From positions 1 to 54,571 of the forward strand of contig JAIBAP010000041.1 of the NCBI GenBank assembly GCA_019695115.1: a stretch of 54,571 nucleotides of DNA. The letters run 5' to 3'. The position numbers and the translations under genes are program-made. This document shows, in pieces, positions 15,304-47,047 of this stretch. The notes under the pieces are model-generated. The model was given only the letters and a program-made list of their open reading frames with translations, made no database searches and was not told the origin of the DNA. The DNA is from Caldilineales bacterium. Its GTDB lineage: Bacteria > Chloroflexota > Anaerolineae > J102. The first letter of the stretch is position 1. The number at the start of each line of letters is the position of its first letter.

Positions 15304-16851
15304 ATGAAGCCCCTCCTCCCCCTCCTCATCTCACTCCTGCTCCTGCTTTTCCCGGCCCTGGCCCTGGCCGAAGGGACGCCCCCCGACCCCTTGCGCCAGC
15401 CGGAATCGCAGTCGCCCTATGGCATGGACATCATGGGGCCGGCCTGGCAATGGACCTTCCCCCGCGAGGATGCCTGGCCGCGCATGAGCGGCGAGATTCG
15501 CATCGACCAACTCGACGAGATCATGCGCAAGAGCGCCGCCGCCGGGGTGCGCGCCGCCCGCATCTCCACCTGGTGGTGCATGATCGAGCCGCAACGCGAC
15601 CAGTATTTCTGGACCGACATGGACTACGCCTTTCAGTTGGCCCGCAACTACGGCATCATCCCCGTCCCCGAGGTCTTCTTCACCCCCGCCTGGGCCACGC
15701 TGGCCGGCCCGAACGACGCCGAGTGCATCAACAGCACGGTCAAGAACTACCCCCCCACCGATATGACCGAATGGTCGCAGTTCATGTCCGACCTGGTGGC
15801 CCGTTACGGACGGCAGGGCAAGGACCAGGTTCACGACTGGGAGATCTGGAACGAGCCTGACCTGTGGGAATTCCTCTACGTGCCGCATGACCCCGACAAC
15901 GGCAGCGTCCCAGTCTACGCCGACCTGGTCAAACGGGCGCGGCAAGAGATCGACGCCCACGACCCCGGCGGGCGGCTGCTCTTGGGCGGGCTATCCGATA
16001 TTTACGGCCCGGCCTTCCTGGAGAAATTGCTGAACCTGCGCGGACCGCTCGACATCCGCGACGACGTGGATGTGGTCACGTTCCACGCCTTCAGCGCCCA
16101 CGAGGAGAAGATCAGCAAGCTCAAGGCTCCCCTGGCTGGGACGAACTACGAACTCTGGATCACGGAACTGAATCACTGGGGATGGGGCGAAGACACGTCG
16201 AGCGCGGCCCTGGCCGAACTTTATCAACGGCTCCAAAATCACGGCATCACCCGTTCGTTCTGGTTCAAGTCGTGGACGACCGACTGGGGGCCTGGCATTT
16301 TCGTCAATCGCGACCCCCTGTGGGTGCCGGGACCGTTCGAGCCGAGCGCCTTCTACACCACCTTCGAGCAGCAGGCCTTCGGCCACACCCTGCCCGGCGC
16401 CCCCATCCCCGAATGGCCGCCTTCGCACTCACTTGTGGGCGCGCAACCGTTCCTTGCCTGGCACGCCCCCCAGGCCGGCGACTTCCCCATCAGCGGCTAC
16501 AAGCTCCAGATCGACGACAGCCTGTTCCGCGGCCAGCCCTACTTCCACACGCCGGAGGTGGACGCCTGGATCCCGGCCACTCTCATCCACTTCTTCCCCC
16601 TGCAACGCGCCGGCGGCCAACCCGTCGCCGGAACCCGGCTTGCCGCCAGCCCTGCTTCTCCGCTGGTAGTGCCTGCGCTCGAACGCAGCAACTTCAGCCC
16701 CGACCGGGAACTCCCGCCCGGCCGCTACTTCTGGCGCCTCGCTGCCGTCGATAGCGAAGGCAACGTCGGCCCCTACAGTCCCGTCCAGACCATCCTTGTC
16801 GAAGCCGGCAGCCAGCGCACCTTTCTGCCCCTGCTCAAAGTCGCACCCTGA
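15304..16851 (+). CDS. Secreted GH39-like glycoside hydrolase
   Basis: 515 residues. Signal peptide (1-22, ends ALALA), then a (beta/alpha)8 clan-A hydrolase core. IWNEPD at 181-186 gives the acid/base E184, and LWITELNHWGW gives a likely nucleophile E288. TW-WCMIEP near 89-96 and PVPEVFFTPAWA fit the fold. A fibronectin-like C-terminal region follows (about 405-500). The protein ends with RTFLPLLKVAP, a tail shared in pattern with two other secreted proteins of this window. ATG 15304 opens onto the signal peptide. Family 39 is my best guess; families 5, 42 or 51 are possible. Substrate is unknown. Confidence 0.78.
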   Translation: MKPLLPLLISLLLLLFPALALAEGTPPDPLRQPESQSPYGMDIMGPAWQWTFPREDAWPRMSGEIRIDQLDEIMRKSAAAGVRAARISTWWCMIEPQRDQYFWTDMDYAFQLARNYGIIPVPEVFFTPAWATLAGPNDAECINSTVKNYPPTDMTEWSQFMSDLVARYGRQGKDQVHDWEIWNEPDLWEFLYVPHDPDNGSVPVYADLVKRARQEIDAHDPGGRLLLGGLSDIYGPAFLEKLLNLRGPLDIRDDVDVVTFHAFSAHEEKISKLKAPLAGTNYELWITELNHWGWGEDTSSAALAELYQRLQNHGITRSFWFKSWTTDWGPGIFVNRDPLWVPGPFEPSAFYTTFEQQAFGHTLPGAPIPEWPPSHSLVGAQPFLAWHAPQAGDFPISGYKLQIDDSLFRGQPYFHTPEVDAWIPATLIHFFPLQRAGGQPVAGTRLAASPASPLVVPALERSNFSPDRELPPGRYFWRLAAVDSEGNVGPYSPVQTILVEAGSQRTFLPLLKVAP

Positions 16852-29534: not shown

Positions 29535-32500
29535 TCAATGCGCCCGCAGCAGTGTGGGCAGGAAGACCCTGATCGGCGGTGGGGCGAAGGGGAAGCTGAC
29601 CGTCGCCCGCTCGCCGTTTGCCAGCAGGCTCACCTGGCGGGTGCGTGGGCCGAGCGGTTCGTACGCGGCCGGCCAGCTTTCGACCGTGACTTGGTAGACA
29701 TCCGGCGGCAGGTCCTGCATCACATACTGGCCCGGCAGGAACATGTCCGGGCCGGTGGTGACAAGGCCGACGCGCTCGCCCTGGCTGTTGGTCAGGCTGA
29801 GGACGATGTCGTTCAGGGCCGGCTCCTCGGCGTAGACGCCATCGGCGTCGTTGTCCAGCCAGGCCAGGCCGTCGACGACGACGCTGGGGCAGGGTTCTTC
29901 GCCTGCGGCCAGGGCGCCGGCGGCGGCGCGGCAGGAGCCGACGTTGATGATCGTCAGCCAGTGGTCTTCCACCTCGCCGCTGCTGGCCGGGCCGGCCGGG
30001 GCGGCCACTTCGGCGGCGTCGTTGGCAAGCCGGCAGCGCAGATAGCTGACTCCGGGCGTGGGTACGGCGAAGCCGCTGAAGGTGAGATTGAGCGACTGGC
30101 GGCTGGCCGAACTGTTGACCACCGCCGCCGCGCGCTCGCCTCCGTCCAGGAAGTCGCCGTCGCGGTTGAAGTCGATCCAGCAGGCCAGGCTGGCGGTTTG
30201 GCCGGTGTCGTTCAGGGCCGTCATCATCACGTTCACCGCGCCCGAGGCCGTGGTGATCACCGGCAGGACGACGACGCCATCTTCGTCATCCAGACCGGCG
30301 GCGTCGTCGGCGCTGGCGCTGGCGTTCTGCAGGCCGCCGTTGTCGCTTTCGGGGGCTTGGCGGCCCAGGTAGAGGTTGGGGATGATGACGTGGCTGGGGC
30401 CGTTGTCGGCGGCTGTGGTCTGGTAATTGCCGGGGGCAGCGCCGGGACCGGGGTCGGGGGCGTCGCCGTAGTCCCGCGGCAGGGTCGGCACCACATCCAC
30501 ACACACTTGCGCCGAGGCGGCCTGCACCGTGGCCTGGAGCGAGCCGCCGACCGGGGTCGTGGCCTGGGCCGCGACATAGCCGGTGTTACAGGTGCGCTGG
30601 TACAACGTCGTGGTGCGCGTGCACCAGGCTTTCTGCCCCGGCCCCAGCGGGCCGACGGTGCAGATGTCGCCCAGCACGCTGTCGGTGACGGTTACGTTGC
30701 TCAGCCAGGCGTCGCCGGTGTTGGTCACCTCATAGGTGTAGGTGACGGGGCCGCCCGGCAACACCTGCGGCGCGCCGGCCCGTTTGAGGATCGAGACCCT
30801 GGCCCGGGCATAGCCGAAGTCGGCGAAGAGGAAGCTCTGGCCGGCGCCGAGGTTGACCGGGTAGGGGTTGGGGCCGTAGGCGGCGCTGGTGAAGACGAAG
30901 CCGTGCAGCGGGCGACCGGCATCGAAGTTGGCGGCGGACACGCGGGCCTGGTAGCTGCCCGCAGGCAGGCCGTCGAACAGATACAGCCCGCCGCCGCTGG
31001 TGACATCGGTGGCGATGATGTTGTTGCCGGCATCCAGCAACTCGACCAGCACGCCGTCGATGCCCGGCTCGCCCGCGTCCTGGATGCCGTCCAGGTCGAG
31101 GTCGCGCCAGACGGTGTCGCCGATGGAGGAGTTGGCCGTGATCGTCTCGTAGTTGGCGTCATCGGCGTCCTGCACCAGGGTGTTGCCGTAATAGCCGCCG
31201 GTGGTGGCGCGGTTGAAGTGCTGGCCGGCCTGGGCGGGCAAGGGGCCGATGGTGCAGGTGTAGCTGGCGCCGGTGGCCAGGGGGTTCGGGATCGGGCTGC
31301 ACGAGCCGAGCGGGTAGCGGCTGTCGGTCAGGCTCACGTTTTGCAGCGGCACGTTGCCCACGTTGACGATGATGAAGCGGAAGTAGACATCGCCGCCCGG
31401 CATGGCCTGCGGCCCCGGCGCGGCGTCGGCATCCTGCCAAGTGGCCGCCCCATCCACCGACACCAATTTCTCGATGTCGATGGCCGGGCGAGCAGGGGCG
31501 TAGTAGTTGGCGTCGTCGGTGTCGCGCACGGGGATGCCCTCGTATTCGCCGGTGGCGATGGCCGTGTTGGTGTGCACGCAGCCTTCGACCTCGGTGGCGA
31601 CGGTCGCGATGATGCACTGGTAGCTGGCGCCCGGAGCGAGGGGGTTGGGGATGGGGTCGCAGCTATTGAGCGGGTAGACCGTATCCGTCAGGGCCACGTT
31701 GTAGAGCGGCACCCCGCCCGTGTTCGTCACCACGAAGCGGTAGAAGACCCTGTCACCCACCCGGCTCTGTGGCCCTGGCGAGATGTCGGCATCCTGCCAG
31801 GTGGCCTGTTCGTCGACCGAGACGTATTTCTCGACATCGATGGCCGGTCGCGTCGGAGCGTTGTAGTTGGCGTCGTCGCTGTCGCCCACGGGGATGTCAT
31901 CGTAGACGCCGGTGGTGCGGGCGGTGTTGGTGTGCTGGCCGAGTTGGGCGGTGGTGGGGCCAAAGGTGCAGGTGTAGACGGCAGCCGGGGCCAGGGGGTT
32001 GGGGATGGCCGGGCAGCCGCTGACATCGTAGACCGAATCGCTAAGGGTGACGTTCGAGAGTGGGACGTTGCCGATGTTGGTGATGACGAAGCGGAAGTAG
32101 ACGGCCTGGCCGGCTGTGGTCAGGGGGCCGGGCAGGACATCGGCATCCTGCCAGGTTTGCTGACTATCGACCGAGACCAGTTTTTCCAGGTCGATGACCG
32201 GGCGAGGCGGGGCGTAGTAGTTGGCGTCGTCGGCGTCGGTGAGGGTGTCGTTCTGATAGACGCCGGTGGTGACGGCGGTGTTGGTGTGTTGGCCCACCTC
32301 GGCCAGCAATGGCCCAATCACACAGCTGTAGCTGGCGCCCGGAAGCAGCGGGTTGGGGAGGGCGGGGCACGAACTGAGGTCGTAGCGATTGTCGCTGAGG
32401 GTGAGGTTGTAGACCGGGACATTGCCCACGTTCGTGATCGCGAAGCGGAAGTAGACATCGCCCCCAGCAGCGACGGATGGCCCCGGCGGCAGGTCGGCAT

Positions 32501-35500
32501 CCTGCCAGTTGCCCGCTTTGTCCACCGAGACGTATTTCTCCAGGTCGATGGCGGGGCGCGTGGGCGCGAAGTAGTTGGCGTCGTCGCGGTCGCTGACCAC
32601 ATCATTGCCATAGGCGCCAGTGGCGGTGGCCGTGTTCAGGTGCTGGCCGACCTGGGCCGACACCGGGCCGTGGAAGCAGGAGAAGCTCTGGCCGGGGGCC
32701 AACAGGGCAGGCGGCGTGCAGCCGACGAGGGTGTAGAGGCTGTCGGTCAGGGTCAGGTTGCTCAGGGTCACATTGCCGGTGTTGGTGACGATGAAGCGGT
32801 AGTAGACGTTGCCCCCGGCCACTGCCTGCGGCCCCGGCGGGGCGTCGGCATCCTGCCAGGTGGACTGGTTATCGACCGAGACCAGCTTTTCCACGTCGAT
32901 GGCGGGCGAGGCGGGGATGGGCGTCGGCGTCCAGGTGGGCGTATTCGTCGGCGTCCAGGTGGGGGTGGGGGTGCGGGTGGGAGTGGAGGTGGGCGTCCAG
33001 GTGGGGGTAGGAGAAGGCGTCCAAGTGGGTGTGGGTGTGGGTGTGGCGGTGCGAGTGGGGGCCGGGGTGTTGGTGGGGGTGGGCGTCGGCGCGAGGTAGT
33101 TGGCGTCATCGCTGTCGCCCACGGTGGTCTGCTCGTAGCGCCCTGTTACTCTGGCCGTGTCGGTGTGTTGGCCCGCCTGGGCCGGCACAGGGCCGTGGAT
33201 GCAGGTGTGGCTCTGGCCGGGCAGCAGGGGGTTGGGGATGTTGCAGCCAACCACGGCATAGACGCTGTCGGTCAACGTCACATCGCTCAGGGGCACGTTG
33301 CCCACGTTGGTGATGACGAAGCGGAAGTAGACGGGGTCCCCGACCATCGCCTGCGGCCCCGGCGGTGCGTCGGCATCGTGCCAGGTCGTCTGCCCATCCA
33401 CCGAGACGTATTTCTCGATGTCGATGGCAGGCTCGGAGGGGACGTAGTAGTGGGCGTCGTCGCTGTCGGTGACGGTGGTTTGCTCGTAGCGGCCGCTGGT
33501 GCGGGCCGTGTCGCGGTGCATGCCCAGCTGGGCGGCCTCCGGCCCGATGGTGCAGGTGTAGCTGGTGGCCGGCGCCAGGGGGTTGGGGATGGCCGGGCAG
33601 CCGCTGGTGGGGTAGACATCGTCGCTCAGGGTGACATCGCTGAGCGGGACATTGCCGGTGTTGGTGATGACGAAGCGGAAGTAGATGGCCCCGCCCTCGC
33701 TGGCTTGCGGGCCGGGCGGGTTGTCGGCGTCGTCCCAGGTTTGCTGGTTGTCGACCGAGACGTATTTCTCGATGTCGATGGCCGGCTGTGGCGGCGCGTA
33801 GTAGTTGGCGTCGTCGGCGTCGGTCAGGGTGGCGCCGTCGTAGACGCCGCTGGCCGTGGCTGTATCCGTGTGTTGGCCGGCCTGGGCGGGCACGGGGCCG
33901 TGCCAGCAGGTGTAGGTCTGGCCGGGGAGTAAGAGGCCGGGCGGGTTGCAGCGGTCGAGGAGGTAGGCATTGTCGGTCAGGGTCAGGTTGGTCAGGGGCA
34001 CGTTGCCAGTGTTCTTCAGCTCGAAGCGGAAGTAGACGGCCGCACCGGCCACCGTTTGCGGGCCGGGCGGGAGGTCGGCATCGTGCCAGGTGGCCTGGTT
34101 ATCGACCGAGACGAACTTCTCCAGGTCGAGGCCCGGCTCCGGCGGGATGGAGGTGGGCGTCCAGGTGGGGGTGGAGGTGGGCGTCCAGGTGGGGGTGTGG
34201 GTAGGAGTCCAGGTCGGCGTCGGCGTCCAGGTGGGGGTGGAGGTGGGCGTCCAGGTGGGGGTGGGGGTGTTGGTGGGGACGGGGGTGTTGGTGAGGGTGG
34301 GCGTGGGGGTGGGCGTGGGGGCGATGTAGTTGGCATCGTCGGCGTCGCTCACGGTCACATCGCCATAGCGCCCCGTCACCCTGGCCGTGTTGGTGTGCTG
34401 GCCCGCCACCGCCGTCACCGGCCCATGCCAGCAGGTGTGGCTCTGGCCGGGCTGCAAAGGATCGGGGATGGTGCAACCAACCAGGGTGTACATGCTGTCG
34501 GTCAGGGTGACGTTGCTGAGCGGGACATTGCCGGTGTTCGTCACCACGAAGCGGAAGTAGACGGGCGTCCCGGCCTGGGTTTGCGGGCCGGGGGGTGTGT
34601 CGGCGTCGTACCAGGTGGCCTGCCCATCCACCGAGACGTATTTCTCCACGTCGATGGCCGGTTCGGAAGGCGCGTAGTAGTTGGCGTCGTCGGTATCGCG
34701 CACGGTCGTCGCCTCGTAGCGGCCCGTGGCTGTGGCCGTATCGGTGTGCTGGCCGACCTGCGCCGCCACCGGCCCGTAGTAACAGGTGAAGCTCTGCCCC
34801 GGCGCCAGCGGGAAGGGGACGATGCAGGTGGGGCCGAGCGGATACACACTGTCGCTGAGGACGACGTCGGTCAGGGTCACATTGCCGGTGTTGGTGATCA
34901 CGAAGCGGAAGAAGACCGGCCCGCCCAGCGGCGCCTGGGGGCCTGGCGGGTTGTCGGCGTCGTGCCAGGTCTCCCGACCATCGACCGAGACGTACTTCTC
35001 GACATCGATGGCTGGCTGCGCCGGCGCGTAGTAGTTGGCGTCGTCGGCGTCGCTGACGGTGAGATCCGTCCATTGCCCGCTGGTGGCGGCCCGGTTGGTG
35101 TGCTGTCCCACCACCGCCGTGATCGGCCCGATGATGCAGGTGTAGCTGGCGCCAACGGCCAGGGGGTCGGGGATGGGGCTACACCCGGCCAGATTGTAGA
35201 TCGTGTCGGTCAGGGTGACGTTGCTGAGCGGGACATTGCCCGTGTTGGTAACGACAAAGCGGAAGTAGACATCGCTGCCGGCGGTGGTAGATGGCCCCGG
35301 CGGTGTGTCGGCATCCTGCCAGCTTTGCTGGTCATCGACCGAGACGTATTTCTCCACGTCGATGGCGGGCGGCTGGTAGAGACCGGCGTCCCACTGCAAC
35401 TGGTTGTCGCCTGCCAGGATGGTAATGACGGCGGTGTTGCCGGTGGCCGTGTTGGCGTCGCTGTCTTTCGTGTCATCGCCACCCTGGTCGCGCAGGGTGA

Positions 35501-37712
35501 AGAGGTAGTTGGCTGGCAGGTAGAAATGGACATAGTACGAGCCGGGGAGCAGGTCGCAGAAGAGATAACGTTCGTTATCGTCGGTCGCCCGCCCGCCCTG
35601 CGAGGCCCAATTGCCATCCACCAGTTTGAACAGCTCCACCCGAACGCCGCTCACACCCGTCTCGGCGCCCTCCTGGATGCCGTTGCGGTTGGTGTCCAGC
35701 CAGACGTAATCACCCAGGCAGGCCAGCCGGGTATTGCCGAAGTCGAAATCGCCCAAAGATTGATCGACCAACGTCACCTGGTGGCTGCCGACGGCGGGAT
35801 AGGTCTGCGCCCAACCGTTCTGCGGCTGCTCGGTTACGGTGTAGGTCCCCGGTTCCAGGTTGGCGAAGGTGTAGCGGCCGGCGCCATCACTGACGGCGGT
35901 GCGGTCGATGTTGTGCGGGCCGCCGCTGAGCCGGATCGTCCAACCGGGCAGGGCAGGCTCGCCGGCGTCCCAGACGCCGTCGCCGTCCAGGTCGCTCCAT
36001 TTGCGCCCGGTCAGGCCCAGTTTGCCGCGGTTGCCAAAGCGCACCTGTTGTTGCTGCGGATAGCCGAGCACCAGTTCTTGTTCCAACGGCGTCGTGTTGA
36101 CGTAGCCGGGATGGTTGTCGGCCTGCTCGACGACCTTGTAACGTCCGCCGATCAGGTCGGTGAAGGTCAGCCGGCCATTAGCGCCGGTGGTGCCACCGCG
36201 GTGCTGCGCCCAATCGTTGTTCTGCCAGATATAGAGCGCAAACTGCCAGCCGGGCAGCAGCGGCTCGGTTCCCTCGTCCCAGACGCCGTCGCCATCCTCG
36301 TCCAGGAACTTGAGGATCTCGAGCACAGAATACTGGCCGTTACCGAAATCCGCCCGCCATTGCGTCCAGGGGTCGGCCAGGGCGCGGGGCCGGGTCTGGC
36401 TAAGGGGGGTGCTGTTGACCCAGCCATTCTTCAAGGTCTCGGTCAGGCGGTAATCGCCAAAGCCGCTGACCTTGTCATGGAAGAAGGCATTGCCGTTGGC
36501 GTCGGTGACGGCGTTGAACTGGCCCTGGGGGGTATCGAGGGTGAAGGACCAGTTGGCCAGGTTGGGTTCGTCTTCCTGCTGCACGCCATCGAAGTTCCGG
36601 TCCTCGAACTTGTGGGCGATGATGAGATTGGTCGCGATCACCCAATCCTTTGTGGCTCGCGCCTGCACCGTCACCCGCGTCATCTGCCCCAACACCAACC
36701 GCTGCCAGGTGTCGGGGCTGAATTGCTCCACGAAGCGCGAGCCGGCCGGCAGATCCACCACCGCCGAAGCGGTGAGGACGGCCGAGCCGGGGGTGGCGCT
36801 GCTGACGGTGAACACGGCCTCGCCGTTGGCGTCGGTGACGGCGCTGGTGCGATCCAGGGTTCCGTATGTGGTGTTGACGTTGACGGTGTATCCCGCCAGC
36901 GGATAGACCCCCTTGCTCAGACGGACGGTGAAGCTGTGGCTCTGCTGGTAGGGCAGGAAGTTGGTGGCGCTGTTGGGCGTGATCGCCATCTGCACATTGC
37001 CCGGCTGATATTCGGGCGGCGGCGCCGCCGGCACCGAGGCCAGGATGGCGTTATAGGCATTGCGCACATTGGTATCGTAAGCGGTGTTGTAGATGGTGGC
37101 GTCGCTCTGATCCAGCAGCCAGCCATCGGTGAAGCGCCACACGGCCGCCTGCCGGGCCGCCTGCTGTACGGCGTCGTTGAGCGTGGGCGGGTAGTGCGTC
37201 ACCAGCCAGGCCACGCGCCAATCCGAGAAGAAGCCGCCATCCAGACAGTAGCTGCGGGCATTGGTCTTGTCGCGGCTGTGGTGGAGGTCGGTGCAGAAGG
37301 CGTAGGCGATGTTGCCGCCGCCAAAATCCAACTTGCCCAGGGGTGTGTCCAGGATCTTCTTGACCCCGCCCTTCCACAGGTTGACGGAGATGGCGATGCT
37401 GGGGTTGGGGGCGTTGGTGGGGACGACCCAGGTGGCGTCGCCGCAAACAGCCGCATCCGAGTCGGAGGGCGCCAATCGCCACAATTCGGGCAGGATGGGC
37501 GAGATGACGGGGTCGGGCGCCGGTGTGGCTGCGGGCGCCGGGTCGCCGGGCGCCACCGGCGCCGGGTCAGGGCCGGCCGCCAGGGCCGCGCCCGGCGCGA
37601 GCATGAGCAGGGCGATCAGGAACAAAACCTGGTAGAGACGGCGACGCCACAAGCGCGGCGCGCCGGCCCGATTCGCCTCAGCGGAAAGCGGTTGCCAAGT
37701 CAGTGCAGACAT
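29535..37712 (-). CDS. Giant thioester-domain adhesin with tandem repeats
   Basis: 2725 residues, secreted. Signal peptide about 15-46 ([20 protein letters not shown]). A Cys-Gln thioester (TQXA-like) domain spans about 85-235, with C140 ([10 protein letters not shown]) and Q188 (ARQAAVW) as the likely bond. Then a Big-like domain (about 240-345), five or so SdrD-B/prealbumin-like modules (to about 770), and 11 repeats of about 118 residues starting (I/L)D(V/I/L)EK-VSVD (781 to about 2190). Two Thr/Pro/Trp linkers interrupt these (after repeats 3 and 6). There follow another SdrD-B module, a DUF11-like domain, a GEVED domain ([10 protein letters not shown]) and a last beta module. The end is [11 protein letters not shown]; there is no LPXTG. 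An AAGGAG precedes the ATG. In known relatives the thioester binds host or surface amines covalently; the target here is unknown. Confidence 0.85.
32914..33093 (-). repeat. Thr/Pro/Trp linker microsatellite 1
   Basis: Six- and twelve-base units encoding [10 protein letters not shown]. The plus strand is a long series of GGTGGG runs. Confidence 0.85.
34141..34323 (-). repeat. Thr/Pro/Trp linker microsatellite 2
   Basis: As the previous linker, between repeats 3 and 4 of the adhesin. GGCGTCCAGGTGGG words recur on the plus strand. Confidence 0.85.
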
Positions 37713-44908: not shown

Positions 44909-46954
44909 TCACGGCCGCAAAATCATCGGCATCACCACCCGATAACGGACGGTCGGCGTCGCCGTTGCCGTTGGCGTGACGGTTAGCTCCTCGGTCGCCG
45001 TCGGTGTGCTGGTCGGCTCCTCGGTCGGCGTCGGCGTGCTCGTCGCCTCGTCCGTTGGCGTCGCGGTCGGCGTACTTGTCGCTTCTTCCGTCGGCGTCGG
45101 TGTGCCGGTCGGCTCCTCCGTCGGCGTGCTCGTCGCCTCTGTGGTCGGCGTCGGGCTGCCCTCGGCCGGCCCCAGCTTGATACGCTGCGACGTCGTCTGC
45201 CCGCCCACCACGAAGAGCGGCGTCACCGTCGCCGTCTGATAGCCCGTCTGCTCGGCCCGGAGCTGATACTGGCCCCAGGGCAGCAGCAAGCTGAACCCAC
45301 CAGCCTCATCCGTCGTGACGCTGCCCACCGGCTGCCCGTTCCGCGTCAGGGCCGTGACCGCGGCGCCGGCGAGCGGCGTCCCGCCCAGGTCGGTCACATT
45401 CCCCGATAGATAACCCTGCTGGCTTAGCGATTCGATGGCGCGGCGGATGTTGACGATCCCCCAGCCAAAGAGATTGTTGGGCGAACCATCGACATCGGCC
45501 CCGCCGCAGGCGAAGCTGACGACCGGATCGGCGGTCATCTGCACGATGGCCTTGACCATGTCCGTCTGCCCGATCAGGCCGGGTGCGGCGTCCAATAGCA
45601 GGGCCACCACGCCCGCCACGTGCGGCCCGGCCATGCTGGTGCCCGAAAGCGGCAGATAGTCGTCGCCCGGCACACTGGAGATGACGCTGACGCCGGGCGC
45701 ACTCACATTCGGTTTGATATACGTTTGCCCGTTGTAGGTGACGGGGCCGCGGCTGCTGAAACTGGCCAGGGCATCGCTGGCATTGGTCGCGCCCACCGAG
45801 AACGAGCGCGGATAGATGGGGGCGGGGTTGGTGACCGAACTGCACGAATTGCCGGAGTTGCCGGCCGAAACCACCACCACGATGCCGGAGGCGTCGGCGG
45901 CGTTCACGGCCGGCTCGATGGCGCCAAGCTGGCTGGTGGTGCAGCCCTCATCCGGTGGGCAGCCCCACGAATTGTTCATCACATCCGGCGCTTTGCTGGG
46001 GTCGCCGTCGGTCATGGGGTCGCCGCCCAGCGGGTAGGGCGCCGTCAACCACTCGAAACACTCGATGTAGGTGGAAGGCCGGCCCCAGCCGTTGTCCATG
46101 TTGCGGCACGAGATCCACTTCGCTCCCGGCGCCACCCCCACCGCATAGCTGGCCCCGGCCGGCCAGTTGGGGGCAGTCGAAGCCAGGTCGTTGCCCACCA
46201 TCGTCCCCATGGTGTGGGTGCCGTGGCCGTCGTCATCACACGGCGCCAGGCTGTCGTAACCGCACGCGTTGCCGGGGTCGGCGGGCGGCACATCCTCGTG
46301 GATGCTATCGTGCCAGTTGTAGTTGTGATCGGCGGTCTGCGTCCCTGCATCCCACCCCCGGTACTTATCCTTGATCGCCTCGTGCTTCCAATCGTAGCCC
46401 GTATCCTGACCAGAGACGATGATCCCGGCCCCGGTGTAGCCCTGCGACCAGGCCCACGGTGCCTGCACCCGCTGCACGCCCCAGGTGATGCTAGTCGCCT
46501 CGCCCGCGGCCTGGTCGGAGACAGGCAGCGGCTCAGCCGAGCGATAGGCGGCGTCGGAGACTAGCTTTTTCACGCCGGGCAAGGCCAGCACGCGGTCGAT
46601 CTGCGCTTGCGTCAGCTCGGTCTGGATGGCGTTCACGATCCAGAAACGGCGATAACTTGCGCCCATGCGATCCAGCTCAGCCAGCACGGGCGCCTGTGTG
46701 CGTAGCGCCTGCCGGCGCAGGGCATCGTAGACCCAACGCCCGCGCGCCTCCTTGTCCGGCAGCCGATAGGCCGGGCTGAGGTCGGTCGCCTCGCCCAAGA
46801 CGATGAGCACAGCGGCGCGGTCGCTCTGGCGTAGCTCTTGCACAATCCGGCTATCGAGACGGGGGTCGGGCCGGGCGGCCAGCGGCGAGCCAATGACCAC
46901 CAGGCTGGCGGCGATGACAAACACGATGGCTATTGCAAAAATGTATGTGCGCAT
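44909..46954 (-). CDS. Secreted subtilisin-like serine protease
   Basis: 681 residues. N-terminal signal/anchor helix (4-21), an I9-like propeptide (about 35-135), then a peptidase S8 domain with triad D184 (GQDTGYD), H244 (DDGHGTH) and S440 (SGTSMAGP), and oxyanion N366 (SAGNSG). A carboxypeptidase-regulatory-like beta domain follows (about 515-605), then a Thr/Pro/Glu linker, and the protein ends YRVVMPMILRP. ATG 46954 opens onto the signal helix; the longer frame to 47044 translates the GGAGATT repeat. The endpoint tail resembles those of the GH39-like and adhesin proteins. Confidence 0.92.
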   Translation of the reverse strand: MRTYIFAIAIVFVIAASLVVIGSPLAARPDPRLDSRIVQELRQSDRAAVLIVLGEATDLSPAYRLPDKEARGRWVYDALRRQALRTQAPVLAELDRMGASYRRFWIVNAIQTELTQAQIDRVLALPGVKKLVSDAAYRSAEPLPVSDQAAGEATSITWGVQRVQAPWAWSQGYTGAGIIVSGQDTGYDWKHEAIKDKYRGWDAGTQTADHNYNWHDSIHEDVPPADPGNACGYDSLAPCDDDGHGTHTMGTMVGNDLASTAPNWPAGASYAVGVAPGAKWISCRNMDNGWGRPSTYIECFEWLTAPYPLGGDPMTDGDPSKAPDVMNNSWGCPPDEGCTTSQLGAIEPAVNAADASGIVVVVSAGNSGNSCSSVTNPAPIYPRSFSVGATNASDALASFSSRGPVTYNGQTYIKPNVSAPGVSVISSVPGDDYLPLSGTSMAGPHVAGVVALLLDAAPGLIGQTDMVKAIVQMTADPVVSFACGGADVDGSPNNLFGWGIVNIRRAIESLSQQGYLSGNVTDLGGTPLAGAAVTALTRNGQPVGSVTTDEAGGFSLLLPWGQYQLRAEQTGYQTATVTPLFVVGGQTTSQRIKLGPAEGSPTPTTEATSTPTEEPTGTPTPTEEATSTPTATPTDEATSTPTPTEEPTSTPTATEELTVTPTATATPTVRYRVVMPMILRP

Positions 46955-46960
46955 AGTGGT

Positions 46961-47011
46961 TTGGAAATTGGAGATTGGAGATTGGAAATTGGAGATTGGA
47001 GATTGGAGATT
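46961..47011. repeat. GGARATT word repeat upstream of the subtilase
   Basis: Seven or so GGAGATT/GGAAATT heptamers just before the subtilase start, followed by CCACCTGCC/CACTTGC words. They fill the gap to the helicase stop. Confidence 0.85.
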
Positions 47012-47047
47012 GCCACCTGCCACTTGCGACCTGACACCTGCCACCCC

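Follow-up and report, generated by a model that had tools for sequence, protein, structure and literature searches.

The question raised by this locus is why three secreted proteins with different domains should end in the same short peptide. The window, by which we mean the whole stretch of 54,571 nucleotides analysed here from a Caldilineales bacterium (Chloroflexota), encodes a GH39-like glycoside hydrolase, a giant surface adhesin and a subtilase. An initial annotation, made from the letters alone, had proposed that their common C-terminal tail is a sorting, anchoring or secretion signal. The features concerned are as follows.

15304–16851, plus strand: GH39-like glycoside hydrolase whose C-terminal part is Fn3-like, a tail carrier (Pfam PF01229, E 7e-11; orthologues)
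15304–15375, plus strand: signal peptide of the GH39-like hydrolase, MKPLLPLLISLLLLLFPALALAEG, from the translation; the start is an internal ATG of the open frame
16813–16851, plus strand: tail of the GH39-like hydrolase, Q-RTFLPLLKVAP, and stop; FLP, YLP or YIP is kept in six orthologues
29535–37712, minus strand: giant surface adhesin, a tail carrier (translation and domain matches)
37575–37712, minus strand: signal sequence of the adhesin (translation)
29535–29570, minus strand: C-terminal tail of the adhesin and stop (codons 29570–29538, stop to 29535)
44909–46954, minus strand: secreted subtilase with a CarboxypepD_reg domain, a tail carrier (Pfam PF00082, Peptidase_S8, E 1e-44); the start is an internal ATG (MRTYIF)
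44948–45148, minus strand: linker rich in Thr, Pro and Glu, of about 65 residues, from the last folded domain of the subtilase to its tail (sequence)
44909–44944, minus strand: tail of the subtilase, YRVVMPMILRP, and stop (codons 44944–44912, stop to 44909; homologues)

All three ends read as first reported, except that the subtilase tail had been placed at 44942, two bases short of 44944. The GH39-like protein terminates in QRTFLPLLKVAP (codons 16813–16848, stop 16849–16851, plus strand, by translation). The signal sequences claimed for all three proteins, among them MKPLLPLLISLLLLLFPALALA, can be seen by eye in each N-terminus. The architectures of the carriers differ: GH39 with an Fn3-like region in the first, TED, SdrD_B and GEVED modules in the adhesin, and Peptidase_S8 with CarboxypepD_reg in the subtilase. 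The adhesin is 2725 residues long and combines a TED thioester domain, for which the match is weak (PF08341, E 2e-4), with SdrD_B/SpaA-like modules, DUF7507/DUF11 repeats, GEVED and TP-rich linkers of Thr, Pro and Trp. Thioester domains are typical of surface-anchored proteins, and the protein (29535–37712, minus strand) has, by its domain matches, the predicted architecture of a covalent adhesin without LPXTG. The part of the open frame that precedes the subtilase start contains a short tandem repeat, NLQSPISNFQSPISNFQ, at about 46950–47044, which is probably an intergenic repeat and not protein. In none of the three proteins do the final residues fall within a Pfam model (E up to 1) or an NCBIfam model (E up to 10).

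The tail lies at the C-terminus and is restricted to exported proteins. In a sample of 0.85 Mb of the window's genome, window included and partly non-random (a few stretches were picked around subtilase genes), codon-usage gene calling gave 588 genes with 83% coding, and simple rules of hydropathy divided the proteins into exported, multi-membrane and cytoplasmic classes. A strict motif, [FYWLV][LMV]P[LIMVT][LVIMA]x0-2[RK], sought in the last 16 residues, occurs in 10 of 109 exported proteins (about 9%), 1 of 110 multi-membrane proteins and 2 of 342 'cytoplasmic' proteins, with a Fisher p of 2.05e-5 for the exported versus the cytoplasmic class. The same motif is found in only 1 of 3043 internal 16-mers of exported proteins, and the count expected after shuffling the exported C-termini is 0.2. 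A matrix trained only on the tails of other genomes reaches a score of 10 in 7.8% of exported C-termini versus 0.06% of their internal windows, and, at the same threshold, in 1.3% of the 'cytoplasmic' C-termini of the window's genome. Of these 'cytoplasmic' high scorers, most are of extracellular type in sequence, with a start that was miscalled or unseen, and the two with the strict motif are probably misclassified exported proteins; the sole multi-membrane match is the window's own adhesin. The true contrast between exported and non-exported proteins is therefore sharper than these counts. Enrichment at exported C-termini over controls, with few cytoplasmic cases, is the test that the initial annotation had set for itself in advance, and the tail passed it.

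When relaxed forms are counted (such as LFAPMILRSR, VFVPLWLRQRR and IYLPMHLFAH), roughly one quarter of the sample's large exported proteins have the tail; scaled up by eye, this count suggests tail proteins of the order of a hundred per genome. Exported proteins and tails were both scarce in random samples of 100–200 kb from 11 other genomes, so that rates per genome beyond that of the window are poorly estimated.

As far as our scan sees, the tail is confined to one phylum. A DNA pattern for V-[YF]-L-P-L-[VIM]-x-R-stop, scanned across 84,980 species genomes, returned six matches, and all six are in Chloroflexota (Anaerolineae, Chloroflexales and others). Each is the end of a long open frame, and the proteins are unrelated and of secreted type; a signal peptide is clear near the start in five, and the sixth has an extracellular-type N-terminus in which none is visible. 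A looser pattern, applied to 301 genomes across the phylum, yielded 84 matches versus 20 for a reversed-pattern control. Half of these (42 of 84) lie in 19 genomes of a Chloroflexaceae-like family, f20, and there are further clusters in families f57 and f5. Among the matches inspected, the real ones end large extracellular proteins and the chance ones are short frames or non-exported proteins; those inspected in family f25 were all of the second kind and were rejected as true tails. The single match on a viral contig is an uninformative frame of 41 residues. Besides being common in this Chloroflexaceae-like family, the tail is common in part of the window's class, where f1, f4, f5/g15, f8 and f67 bear it. 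Within the limits of the patterns it was not detected in most other families of the phylum or in f2, a family of the window's class in which the few subtilase ends seen lack it too. Family f20 presumably includes Chloroflexus, f57 Roseiflexus and f30 Herpetosiphon. In a genome that is presumably Chloroflexus aggregans, three tandem RCC1-like secreted paralogues (L262:7700–15447) have near-identical tails, WGVYLPMIVR. The statement in the initial annotation that other secreted proteins of Chloroflexota end similarly is thus borne out across the phylum.

An artefact of chance or composition might be suspected, given that the motif is short and that chance alone would give about 20 of the 84 matches in the phylum. 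We regard this explanation as having a negligible likelihood; it is refuted already by the controls, and the enrichment, the six-of-six phylum matches, the conservation in orthologues and the test with a matrix trained on other genomes all speak against it. Synonymous codons vary freely among copies of the tail, so that it is the peptide that is under selection, rather than an element of the DNA or RNA. The tail is real and phylum-specific and, as far as the open-access literature goes, undescribed: no description of it was found there among C-terminal sorting signals in Chloroflexi or Chloroflexota.

The anatomy of the tail was established from examples chosen without requiring a terminal Arg; the Pro is present by construction. 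Position -2 relative to the Pro is aromatic in 48 of 54 tails, position -1 is Leu, Phe, Met or Ile, and positions +1 and +2 are mostly hydrophobic. R or K is found at +4 in 30 of 52 tails and is common at -4 in the matrix, and R, K or H follows the Pro in 43 of 54, with an acidic residue within three residues in only 1. The pattern first proposed needs correction: the steady core is aromatic-[L/F/I/M]-Pro-hydrophobic-hydrophobic, and the basic residues on its flanks are frequent but not obligatory; the stop codon, which had been placed within 5–6 residues of the Pro, usually falls 4–7 residues past it (44 of 54). The consensus is [R/K]-[V/L]-[Y/F/W]-L-P-[L/M/I]-[V/I/L]-x-[R/K], and its representative R-V-Y-L-P-L-V-L-R is near-symmetrical around the Pro and much too short to cross a membrane.

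The sequence is also degenerate, with both YYYYFPFITHH and RVYLPLVLR among the tails, and the stop lies at a variable distance; both features could also be those of a non-specific hydrophobic anchor or self-association tag. Such an aromatic and aliphatic peptide with a basic end would stick to the membrane surface or to an outer envelope layer, or glue proteins together, and would need no dedicated receptor. The aromatic-rich core, the mostly basic residues past the Pro and the exchange of tail and membrane anchor among homologues (see below) are likewise in its favour. However, the strong Y/F-L-P-L order has a specificity that hydrophobicity would not require, a membrane span takes more than about eight residues, and the restriction to one phylum suggests a partner. 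We give this explanation a modest chance of being correct.

The carriers are unrelated to one another, and include subtilase, GH39, CBM96/SBBP, GSDH, BNR, CARDB/PPC and SdrD_B proteins as well as proteins with RCC1-like repeats recognised by eye. Orthologues conserve the tail. Six GH39 orthologues, with 45–62% identity over the protein, keep the core at their ends (QVFLPTILR, KLYLPYQTH, RVFLPTVIVP, SSFLPLTTLNGP, SVYIPLP and SSYLPLL), with lengths and flanks that vary. We counted by eye 44 complete ends of homologues of the window's subtilase, and about 25, from many families, have a recognisable tail; about 4 have a degenerate tail, 5 have a transmembrane segment with arginines, and about 10 have neither. 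Homologous subtilases thus end in the tail or in a membrane anchor, and both fill the same place within one protein family.

Two other kinds of subtilase end were observed. At L219, L221, L229, L241 and L245 the 3' end encodes a transmembrane segment and an arginine cluster, some with ALP motifs, and no YLP tail; these proteins could be part of an exosortase-like or sortase-like system. A second type of tail, with a Gly-Cys and an amphipathic stretch, is present at L059, L074 and L001 (GMGCIPGLIKYLLK, MGCLESLRLTPLLQLIGRAGQK and GGCLLSILRVFMLW, respectively).

A lipobox is present in 0 of 11 tail proteins versus 24 of 98 other exported proteins, a statistically weak difference (about 0.05), and a C-terminal membrane segment is present in 0 of the 11 tail proteins scored. 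Both results would follow if the tail were another means of attachment, although the numbers are small. The tail often stands at the end of a disordered Thr/Pro linker, and so is neither a domain strand nor part of a fold. This bears on a possible role in folding, stability or protease protection, in which the tail would dock on the last domain of its carrier or serve as a quality-control handle. In some carriers, such as GH39, the tail does lie only about 10 residues past a beta-rich domain; however, the same peptide also ends long disordered linkers and follows unrelated domains, and it cannot complete so many different folds. A role of this kind seems highly improbable.

The initial annotation had suggested a test for co-occurrence with a candidate processing or anchoring protein. 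We found no receptor or enzyme partner, and the prevalence of sortase, exosortase and secretin does not track the tail. Sortase was rejected on the evidence of genome G165 (97% complete), where four tail proteins were checked and nothing matches sortase; the window's own genome has a sortase, and many other sortase-bearing genomes lack the tail. Exosortase (PF09721) was rejected because it occurs in only 3 of 18 Chloroflexota genomes, G000 and its two family-mates G181 and G338, all from the window's family. The 15 others have none, and it is absent from the tail-bearing genomes G165, G163, G232 and G058. The exosortase gene of G000 (G000:C3:7082–7819, minus strand, E 6.7e-58) adjoins L001, a divergent subtilase that ends in a poly-proline linker and GGCLLSILRVFMLW. 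A secretin route was rejected with PF00263 in 0 of 18 Chloroflexota genomes versus 6 of 14 control genomes. Among the neighbours of tail genes in the sample, no candidate partner recurs by size or class, and only adjoining tail genes were seen. AlphaFold, run on two C-terminal pieces as single sequences without alignments, gave mean pLDDT values of 35 and 52, too low for the models to be interpreted.

These distributions also weigh on the proposal that the tail is a cleaved sorting signal, a minimal counterpart of LPXTG or PEP-CTERM, at which a lineage-specific transpeptidase or protease would cut at or near Leu-Pro and join the protein to the envelope. The LP core, the terminal basic residues and the C-terminal position recall tripartite signals, and one carrier in the window has the architecture of a surface adhesin. 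Against this stand the absence of a substrate-holding membrane span (0 of 11), the tail proteins of G165 in a genome without sortase, and the confinement of exosortase to the window's family among the 18 genomes. Cleavage of this sort is, in our judgement, unlikely.

A targeting or anchoring signal is most likely, to judge from the sequences. Specifically, we consider it somewhat probable that some of the Sec-exported proteins of Chloroflexota are destined for a place in the cell envelope by this short linear motif at their C-termini. The position, the conservation and the exchange with membrane anchors uphold the initial suggestion of a signal to this extent, and the function itself is what we infer from them. 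The carrier would cross the membrane by means of its N-terminal signal peptide, and a dedicated component of the envelope, acting as receptor, would then bind the tail, often on a flexible linker, in trans outside the cytoplasm. This component would retain or position proteases, glycosidases and adhesins at the surface, possibly with cleavage of the tail. More tentatively, the tail could be a phylum-specific sorting code without a transmembrane segment, read by a dedicated receptor or transpeptidase, which populates the unusual, multilayered envelope that Anaerolineae and Chloroflexia have in the absence of Bam, secretins and LPS.

How Chloroflexota build their envelope is a recognised puzzle, for which a tag on surface proteins gives a direct handle. 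Cryo-tomography shows outer-membrane-like and S-layer-like layers in the phylum despite the lack of the usual outer-membrane genes (PMC7332563, PMC13319060). The envelope of Litorilinea is made up of inner and outer layers and a protein layer resembling an S-layer (PMC13319060). Chloroflexus aggregans and 'Ca. Viridilinea' have a diderm-like envelope and no LPS or bamA genes, and Roseiflexus castenholzii appears to be without the outer layer seen in those two (PMC7332563). If family f57 is Roseiflexus, the tail does not require an outer-membrane-like layer. With the tail, part of the surface proteome can be listed from the sequence by itself, and it would improve the annotation of many 'hypothetical' secreted proteins. 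It also offers bait for a receptor, and its roughly 12 residues could be moved onto a reporter as a test of targeting.

Several known systems resemble the tail in part. The outer-membrane beta-signal recognised by Bam and the signals of type II secretion are also short C-terminal hydrophobic or aromatic patterns; however, the tail carriers are soluble proteins and not barrels, Chloroflexota lack bamA (PMC7332563), and no secretin is present in the 18 Chloroflexota genomes. Type IX secretion likewise relies on signals at the C-terminus of Sec-exported proteases and adhesins within a single phylum. Its C-terminal domains are folded and Ig-like (PMC11285876), whereas the tail has about 8–12 residues (about 11 in the subtilase), often past a disordered linker, and no such domain. 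The LPXTG signals of sortase share with the tail a Leu-Pro core near the C-terminus and surface adhesins among their carriers. After LP-x, however, the tail is hydrophobic and then basic with no T-G, no membrane-spanning stretch follows the motif, and one tail-bearing genome has no sortase match at all. PEP-CTERM, GlyGly-CTERM and MYXO-CTERM are tripartite and depend on a transmembrane helix and a membrane enzyme (exosortase or rhombosortase); the YLP tail has no helix, none of the tails combines a PEP motif, a transmembrane helix and an Arg cluster, and, unlike in PEP-CTERM systems, most of the tail-bearing genomes tested have no exosortase. The absence of TG and of a transmembrane helix from the window's tails agrees with the initial view that they are neither LPXTG nor PEP-CTERM. 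In common with PEP-CTERM, GlyGly-CTERM and MYXO-CTERM, the tail is a short C-terminal homology region with terminal basic residues, restricted to one taxon and carried by unrelated exported proteases, adhesins and hydrolases, and in Chloroflexota it would play the role taken elsewhere by LPXTG, PEP-CTERM or a membrane anchor at the C-terminus.
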